From Cutaneotrichosporon cavernicola (taxonomy: Eukaryota; Basidiomycota; Tremellomycetes; Trichosporonales; Trichosporonaceae), in assembly GCF_030864355.1 (NCBI RefSeq), contig NC_083395.1, forward strand, positions 434,001 through 498,000: DNA of 64,000 bases, in the 5' to 3' direction. Below are positions 52,801 to 55,327 of the stretch, one piece after another. Positions within the stretch are counted from its first letter, which is position 1. Every line of letters starts with the position of its first letter. Both the position numbers and the translations under genes were made by a program. The notes under the pieces are model-generated. The model did no database searches. It saw only the letters and a list, made by a program, of their open reading frames with translations, and was not told the origin of the DNA.

Positions 52801-54125
52801 TTAGACAGTGACGACCCAGACGCGGATGAGGTTGTCGGTGTAACCGGCAAAGAGGGTCTGGCCGTCGGCCGACCAGGCGAGCGACATGGCCTCGGGCTTG
52901 CGAGCCTTGTCCGAGAGCTCGTTAAAGTCGGGCTTGAGGTCGTCGACGATCGACTTGGACTCGAGGTCGAAGATCTTGATCGAGGTCGAAGTAGCCGCGC
53001 AGAGCCAGTAGCGGTTGGGGCTGAAGACGAGCGAGTTGATAATGTCACCGGCCTCGAGCGAGTAAAGGTGCTTGCCGTCGTTGAGGTCCCAGAGCATGAC
53101 AATGCCGTCCTTGCCACCCGAGGCGGCGAGCGACCCGTCGGGCGAGACGGCGAGGGTGTTGATGTAACCGGTGTGGCCAAAGTGGTTGGTCTTGAGCTTG
53201 CACTTGGAGAGCTCCCAAACCTTGATGTCAGCTTGAATCAAGCGGATAAAGTATCAAATATGGGGGATCAGAGATCTTGGTGGAAATGTTGTCTCATTGG
53301 GCCTAGCCCTCTGAAGTAGCAAATATATAAAGATAACATCATTTCCCCAACCAGCAAACTCACCTTGACAACCTTGTCCCAGCCGGCCGAGACAATGACG
53401 GGGATGACGGGGTTGGGCGAGAAGCGGACGCACGAGACCCACTCCGAGTGGCCGTCGTCAACAATGTTGAACTTGCACTCGCCGAGGGTGTTCCAGAGCT
53501 TGATGGTGCGGTCACGCGAAGCCGAGACGATCTGGCGGTTGTCGGCCGAGAACGAGACGCTAGAGTTAGCTTTCCGTCATATCAAAGACAAAAAAAGAAT
53601 CAGAGATCTTGGTGGAAAGGTTGGTCTCATCGGGCAAGCCCTCTGAAGTAGCAAATATATAGATCGCATCATGGGTTGGTGGGTTGGTGGGCGGCGCGGC
53701 GGGGAATTGCACTGAAACCCAAGTTACTCACGAGAGGACGTCGCCGGTGTGGCCGACAAACTTGCGGGTGGTCAGGCCAGTGTTAAGGTCCCAGAGGCGG
53801 AGGGTCTTGTCCCACGACGACGAGAGGGCAAACTGGCCGTCCGACGAGATGACAACGTCCGAGACAAAGTGGTTGTGGCCGTGGAGGATCTTCTTGGGGA
53901 AGCCGAACGACGACTCGTCACGCGAGAGCTGCCAGACAATGATGGTCTTGTCTGCGTGTCAGTTGACCCTTCCTTCAAGATTTTTTTTTTTCGCCAGCAA
54001 CGCCAGCGCTACGCACCACGCGACGAGGTGAGGATCATGTCCGGGTTCTCCGAAGAGGTGGCGATGGCGGTGACCCAGCCCGAGTGGCCGGCAAGAGATC
54101 CCTTGAACGCGAGAGGCTCGCCCAT
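52801..54125 (-). CDS. ASC1: RACK1/Asc1 ribosome-associated WD40 protein, snoRNA host gene
   Basis: Four exons, 54125-54017, 53951-53732, 53559-53364 and 53220-52801, give 314 aa, the family's standard length. Seven WD repeats fill it: [86 protein letters not shown], then [20 protein letters not shown] and the last blade ending in [12 protein letters not shown]1 binds the head of the 40S subunit and links translation to kinase signalling (GIB2 in Cryptococcus, cpc-2 in filamentous fungi). Introns 2 (172 nt) and 3 (143 nt) each contain a U24-like C/D snoRNA in the sense orientation, as the yeast ASC1 intron contains snR24. The 65 nt intron 1 has an A11 run and no snoRNA. Confidence 0.97.
53262..53348 (-). 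ncRNA. U24 (snR24-like) C/D box snoRNA, copy in RACK1 intron 3
   Basis: Read on the minus strand: terminal stem GGGGA pairing with TCCCC, C box ATGATGT, guide GCTACTTCAGAGGGCT, a small GGGC-TAG-GCCC hairpin, C' box ATGAGAC, guide CACCAAGATCTCTGAT and D box CTGA. The two guides and box layout match my recollection of yeast snR24 (U24), which lies in the ASC1 intron and directs 2'-O-methylation of 25S rRNA (Cm1437, Am1449, Gm1450 in yeast numbering). The element is centred in the intron, leaving splice sites and branch point free, so release by debranching and trimming is expected. Confidence 0.88.
53595..53680 (-). ncRNA. U24-like C/D box snoRNA, second copy in RACK1 intron 2
   Basis: Same core as the intron 3 copy: C box ATGATGC, ATATTTGCTACTTCAGAG, a shorter GGGC-TT-GCCC hairpin, C' box ATGAGAC, CACCAAGATCTCTGAT, D box CTGA. 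Both guide segments are unchanged while the hairpin loop and flanks differ, suggesting selection on the guides. The ends (AACCC before the C box, TTCTTTT after the D box) do not form the clear terminal stem of the other copy, so stability may be lower. Confidence 0.82.
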
Positions 54126-54535: not shown

Positions 54536-55327
54536 ATGTCGTTCAAGCAGCTCCCCAAGGCCGTCAAGGAGCTCCGTCTCCACCTGTGCCAGAACTCGGC
54601 CGCGTCCGCGGGTGTGCGGTGAGTGCGCGGCGAACGCCGAGCGAAGCGAGGCCAAACGAGGCCAAGGCGGAGCGACTTGAGCGCCGCCAATTGAGCAAGC
54701 GGGCCAGAACCAAGCCAGCGGCAAGAGCCGAGCTGCGGCGTGCGGCGCGGTGCGCGCTGCGACGAGGCAAGCACTGACAACTCGGAACTCGGTGTCGCTT
54801 GCCTCCCGCGTACTGGCGCTCGGCCTACCGTCAACTCGTTGCGCGCCAATACTCTGGCCACTCTTGCCCGTAGCATGTCGCTGACCGCAGGGAATTCATC
54901 AAGTCGTCGTTCCCCGCGCTCAAGTCGTCCAACCCCGACGTCAAGGTGCTCGTCCGTGAGGCGCAGGGTGTCGCGCCGCGCGCGTTTGTCCGCTTTGGTG
55001 AGTTGCAGGATGAGGGTTTGGTTGGCGAAGTGACGGGCGGCCCGCGGCGGGATGCGAGGCTGCGGGTTCAAGTAATGGTGAAGGGACAGGGCGGAGGTAC
55101 CGGGATACCGAGAGCGAGGGTGGGAGATGAAGAGATGTGTAAGCCGCCGCGAAGTTGGTTCAAGACCCAGTTCCGAACCAGCTCCCAACCAACTCCCCCG
55201 CGGATGGCCTTGCCGCTCCGCTGGACTCGTGCTAACCCCAGACCGCGGCGTCGAGGCGCAGGCCGGCCTTGAGAACCTCTCTGAAAAGGACGTCGCTTCC
55301 GCGCTCAACAAGCTCGCTAGCCAGTAG
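54536..55327 (+). CDS. NADH:ubiquinone oxidoreductase subunit NDUFA2 (B8, thioredoxin-like)
   Basis: Three exons, 54536-54618, 54891-54997 and 55242-55327, give 91 aa, the size expected for this subunit. The sequence starts MSFKQLPKAVKELRLHLCQ and continues VREFIKSSFPALKSSNPDVK, VREAQGVAPRAFVRFDRGVE and LSEKDVASALNKLA, matching the family's thioredoxin-like L51/S25/CI-B8 fold. It is an accessory subunit of the matrix arm of respiratory complex I. The introns (272 and 244 nt) are together about twice the coding length, in contrast with the tiny introns elsewhere, and are rich in GCGAAGCGAGG words. Presence of complex I fits a non-Saccharomyces fungus. Confidence 0.92.

Follow-up and report, generated by a model that had tools for sequence, protein, structure and literature searches.

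The RACK1 host gene and its introns

The RACK1/Gib2 gene of Cutaneotrichosporon cavernicola lies on the minus strand of a stretch of 64,000 nucleotides (nt) of contig NC_083395.1 (positions 434,001 to 498,000), which is referred to as the window and is numbered from its first letter. The second and third introns of this gene each carry a sense-strand element of the U24 type, a kind of box C/D small nucleolar RNA (snoRNA), and the anatomy of these two elements and their relation to each other are the subject of this analysis. The exon-intron structure comes from a search for splice sites compatible with the protein read in frame, which gave one solution in the ranges tried, and comprises the following features.

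52801..54125, minus strand: RACK1/Gib2 host gene, start to stop codon, 314 amino acids, three introns
53952..54016, minus strand: intron 1, 65 nt
53560..53731, minus strand: intron 2, 172 nt, in codon 110 (phase 2), contains U24 copy 2
53221..53363, minus strand: intron 3, 143 nt, after codon 175 (phase 0), contains U24 copy 1

The encoded protein aligns without gaps to the Gib2 structure 4d6v of Cryptococcus neoformans (1-314 to 1-314, E 1.7e-189), and the closest of the 120 listed clusters is that of a Kwoniella protein, with 91% identity and 97% of the RACK1 query covered. Both host introns have a branch-point-like site, CTAAC at 53569-53565 in intron 2 and CTGAC at 53231-53227 in intron 3. 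The span 53221..53731, in which the first-pass annotation had placed two intronic U24 snoRNAs, is right, its first position being exactly the 3′ end of intron 3 and its last the 5′ end of intron 2 in this minus-strand gene.

Anatomy of the two U24-type elements

Boxes, both guides and an internal hairpin could be located in each of the two introns, in agreement with that annotation, and are distributed as follows.

53264..53347, minus strand: U24 copy 1, in intron 3, Rfam RF00069 (SNORD24) 47.6 bits
Parts of copy 1: C box 53342, D′ guide 53325-53314, D′ box 53313-53310, hairpin 53309-53298, C′ box 53297-53291, D guide 53283-53272, D box 53271-53268
53598..53677, minus strand: U24 copy 2, in intron 2, Rfam RF00069 (SNORD24) 33.0 bits
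Parts of copy 2: C box 53672, D′ guide 53657-53646, D′ box 53645-53642, hairpin 53641-53631, C′ box 53630-53624, D guide 53615-53604, D box 53603-53600

Both copies have the box C/D layout, with the C and D boxes near the ends and internal C′ and D′ boxes of the weak U24 type, the latter two separated by a short hairpin. The C box reads AUGAUGU or AUGAUGC, and the D′, C′ and D boxes are CAGA, AUGAGAC and CUGA in both copies. The D′ guide UAUUUGCUACUU and the D guide CCACCAAGAUCU are present in each copy, as are the guide hallmarks of U24, UUUGCUA before D′ and CCACCAAGAUC before D. The covariance check with the Rfam U24 model that had been proposed for both introns gave a divided result, in that the intron 3 element passes the curated cut-off of 41 bits, which is a database criterion and not a biological feature, with an E value of 3.9e-5 in the 64-kb window, whereas the intron 2 element stays under it. 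Copy 2 is classed as U24 on the strength of its guides and of the homology that it shares with copy 1.

Similarity between the copies

From C box to D box, copy 2 is identical to copy 1 in 67 of 76 aligned columns. With the guide and box segments set by U24 anatomy, all 44 positions within them are identical, as against 23 of 31 elsewhere (Fisher p 0.0005), where the hairpin contributes 9 of 11 and the remainder 14 of 20. The description of the guides as unchanged and of the hairpin loop and flanks as different is borne out, the variation falling in the loop, the spacers and the flanks. Local alignment of intron 2 with intron 3 gives a score of 104, where 2000 mononucleotide shuffles reach 26 at most, and the sole strong similarity between the introns covers 77 columns (E 7e-23), beginning with the C box and stopping one base beyond the D box; four other matches between them are of 9-13 bases (E 0.03-0.4). 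When a sequence-only model is made from both copies plus the Rfam consensus, they score 83.1 and 83.0 bits, by construction, and there is a single other match in the rest of the window, at 3.4 bits. Taken together, the Rfam matches, the gene model and the alignment support the U24-type identity of the elements, their RACK1 host, their strand and their duplication within one gene. Recent gene conversion, rather than selection keeping both copies, might also account for their likeness and would fit the identical runs of 25 and 20 bases; it is highly improbable, as all eight changed positions lie outside the guides and boxes and conversion would not sort changes by function.

Copy number in the genome

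The genome searched comprises 20.2 Mb in 8 contigs. No third U24 copy was found in it, a DNA search with copy 2 at E values of up to 10 returning these two elements alone. The D′ guide together with the D′ box, with one mismatch allowed, occurs at exactly these two places (one for a reversed control pattern), and the exact D guide pattern likewise at two, both in RACK1. When one or two mismatches are allowed in the D guide, 76 further places appear as raw pattern matches versus 23 in all for the reversed control. Chance resemblance of copy 2 to copy 1 is ruled out by this genome-wide count and the shuffles described above. RF00069 at its threshold gives one match genome-wide, and the second copy came from the DNA search. 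Five snoRNA families were searched in this way (RF00069, RF00335, RF00309, RF00093 and RF00016), which is a small sample for a base rate. Within it, snR52 (RF00335) and snR60 (RF00309) have two matches each, on different contigs, and duplicated snoRNAs are therefore not rare in this genome; RF00093 (U18) and RF00016 (U14) have no genome matches, a result that does not show absence. In this small sample U24 stands apart in that both copies share one gene. The fungal U24 pattern had no matches in virus and prokaryote contig collections.

Proposed function and origin of the pair

The boxes, the guides, the intron positions and the presence of two genomic copies are read directly from the DNA. They suggest, with a probability of roughly 0.7, that both introns encode dual-guide U24 (snR24, SNORD24) C/D snoRNAs and that the intron 2 copy is most likely an intragenic duplicate. 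For transcription, processing, the targets in ribosomal RNA (rRNA) and the direction and age of the duplication, the following course may be inferred. The RACK1 pre-mRNA would be spliced and introns 2 and 3 debranched, and of each intron exonucleases would leave a core of about 75-85 nt, bound by C/D proteins. Each core would then guide 2′-O-methylation of 25S rRNA, with the D guide directing modification at the equivalent of yeast C1437 and the D′ guide at that of 1449/1450, for which we take the yeast bases to be A and G. Yeast U24 is reported to be an intronic snoRNA of ASC1 that directs 25S rRNA 2′-O-methylation (PMC4848094, PMC3613415) at positions printed as C1437, C1449 and C1450 (PMC4848094), and deletion of the debranching enzyme in Fusarium lowers several intronic snoRNAs, U24 included (PMC9606315). 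By analogy with yeast ASC1 and Fusarium debranching, both introns should release a U24 particle. Each copy is predicted to pair at -27.6 kcal/mol with a 25S segment that is not this organism's own.

The relative age of the copies can be approached through intron 3, which lies directly after K175; this residue is aligned with K179 of yeast Asc1 (the yeast protein was checked against 3frx), and the yeast ASC1 intron presumably follows codon 179. If this yeast coordinate holds, the host codon of intron 3 is homologous to that of yeast ASC1 and the intron of copy 1 is common to Ascomycota and Basidiomycota. With copy 1 in a shared intron position, copy 2 is probably the daughter, formed by duplication within the gene; the intron 2 copy would thus have arisen from the intron 3 copy and have been kept with both guides intact. 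Intron lengths are also on record for RACK1 genes of other fungi, namely 50, 50, 177 and 48 bp in Flammulina cpc2, where one intron is long enough for a snoRNA (PMC7113406), and 144, 128 and 213 bp in Aspergillus nidulans cpcB (PMC3728086).

Several points weigh against this view of the pair as two U24 snoRNAs, one the duplicate of the other. Copy 2 remains under the RF00069 cut-off, and its 33.0 bits correspond to E values of 0.0063 in 3.5 kb and 0.12 in 64 kb. The flush terminal stem outside the boxes has 6 of 7 pairs in copy 1 and 2 of 7 in copy 2, a difference already described in the first-pass annotation, and copy 2 is thus without such a stem. Unconstrained folds of either copy lack the classic C/D shape (core z-scores 0.23 and -1.57), and in the minimum-energy fold of copy 1 with its flanks the 5′ flank pairs with the guide region and not with the 3′ flank. 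A search of the assembly for the conserved 25S target pattern of U24, at up to two mismatches, gave no match, and the intron-position argument draws on one outgroup and a presumed coordinate. As C/D snoRNAs fold together with their proteins, naked-RNA folds speak neither strongly for nor against the proposal, and the failure to find the target segment means that the ribosomal DNA may be missing from the assembly.

The terminal stem and alternative explanations

Among the C/D loci checked in this genome a flush terminal stem does not appear to be required, and copy 1 stands apart from the others. For two loci of snR52 and two of snR60 the counts are 0, 2, 4 and 1 of 7 flush pairs (at one of the snR60 loci, L028, the C box is not canonical and the register is uncertain), and six of seven pairs are reached by 889 of 20000 shuffles of the copy 1 flanks. 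For all six elements, the best helix between the 20-nt flanks is equalled by 388 to 982 of 1000 shuffles. No external stem that could replace the terminal stem of copy 2 was found within its 20-nt flanks, where the best helix has 3 bp and is equalled by 982 of 1000 shuffles, and no flank-to-flank duplex above chance was found for either copy (equalled in 217 of 500 shuffles for copy 1 and in 442 of 500 for copy 2). A 9-bp hairpin of -7.0 kcal/mol is predicted at 53560-53602 (minus strand), between the D box of copy 2 and the branch point, where copy 2 lacks the terminal stem; folds of equal or greater stability arise in 16 of 200 shuffles, and it is probably due to chance.

The low Rfam score (33.0 versus 41 bits) and the 2 of 7 terminal pairs, with no better external helix in their place, would also be expected if only copy 1 worked and copy 2 were a duplicate in decay, removed by splicing and then broken down. 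Such decay is unlikely given that all 44 guide and box positions of copy 2 are intact though 8 of 31 others have changed, and given that four other C/D loci of the genome are also without a good flush stem.

The first-pass annotation took the missing stem as a sign that the pair may be in the course of dosage change or specialisation, by which the copies would divide the work through different dosage, timing or targets. The differences in the hairpin loop, spacers and flanks are compatible with this view, as is the 6 of 7 flush stem in copy 1 alone, but a division of labour is very unlikely in that both guides and all boxes are identical, both copies sit in one transcript unit and the absence of a stem is common among the C/D loci checked. 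As the guides and boxes are the same, there is no sign of target change. The argument from the stem is weak because four other C/D loci lack a good one and because that of copy 1 is reached by shuffles; the missing stem of copy 2 was accordingly rejected as evidence of change, and the proposed dosage change or specialisation is unsupported. The second copy might still have a dosage effect.

Comparison with known systems

The elements resemble yeast snR24 of ASC1 in the host gene family, the D′ type and the guide-plus-box strings found in SNR24 primers (PMC4848094), but yeast has one copy in one intron and C. cavernicola has two in neighbouring introns. A fungal "atypical snoRNA motif" has been described from 52 species, in 81 examples that lie mostly in introns and are mostly associated with G-protein genes, S. 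pombe cpc2 among them (PMC5640933). Its boxes, C AUGAUGY, D CUGA, C′ AUGAGAC and D′ CAGA, are exactly those of both copies, and the two forms of the last C-box base denoted by Y both occur between the two copies. The main text of that report does not mention U24 and cites complementarity to 5.8S, 18S and 28S rRNA; judging from the boxes and hosts, the atypical motif is probably U24 in RACK1. With 81 examples in 52 species, some species must have more than one, so that several U24 copies per fungal species are probably already in print if the motif is U24. The implied oddity of more than one element per species is accordingly less surprising than the first-pass annotation made it appear.

Two U24-related snoRNAs in one fungal genome are also known from Neurospora (CD50/CD51) and S. 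pombe, where the two U24 guides reside on separate snoRNAs, U24 and U24b, and for which two evolutionary routes were proposed by the authors (PMC2780460). Unlike this split pair, each of the RACK1 copies carries both guides. In chicken, almost all snoRNA paralogues are reported to come from intragenic duplication into adjacent introns with the guides kept (PMC2653536). The RACK1 pair likewise consists of paralogues in different introns of one host with the guides kept; the chicken cis-duplicates differ in being animal and in belonging to other snoRNA families and hosts. In Pleurotus, a survey that applied the Rfam thresholds lists one SNORD24, which is intronic (PMC5040776), and work of this type would miss a copy like copy 2. 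The available passages of PMC3596301, PMC8476143, PMC3511168, PMC5033589 and PMC4202332 do not mention U24 in RACK1 introns.

Other features of the locus

No snoRNA was found in intron 1, where the sole one of 8 Rfam matches (E up to 10) is a weak match to RT-17 (18.7 bits, cut-off 40.4). The divergent neighbour of RACK1, at 54536-55327 on the plus strand, would encode a 91-amino-acid protein with an L51/S25/CI-B8 domain (Pfam PF05047, E 6.2e-14) that resembles the complex I subunit B8/NDUFA2, its exons having been joined by eye.

Significance

The observation that a fungal RACK1 gene contains two dual-guide U24 elements, duplicated in cis, is correct, and both U24 and duplication of this kind are already known. 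The pair connects yeast ASC1 and its snR24 with the split U24/U24b system and with the atypical motif that fungi carry in G-protein genes. A speculative and rather doubtful extension is that the RACK1 pair represents an undivided dual-guide stage preceding the split into U24 and U24b, and that Rfam-based annotation misses second copies, in which case RACK1 genes with twin U24 elements would be commoner in fungi than recorded. The SNORD24 cut-off of Rfam misses a second copy that is apparently intact, which affects fungal snoRNA counts. The pair is of use in annotation and offers a test case for the separation of U24 from U24b, though it is not surprising. As deletion of RACK1 would remove every U24 found in the genome, a snoRNA control would have to accompany work on RACK1 phenotypes, as it does in yeast.
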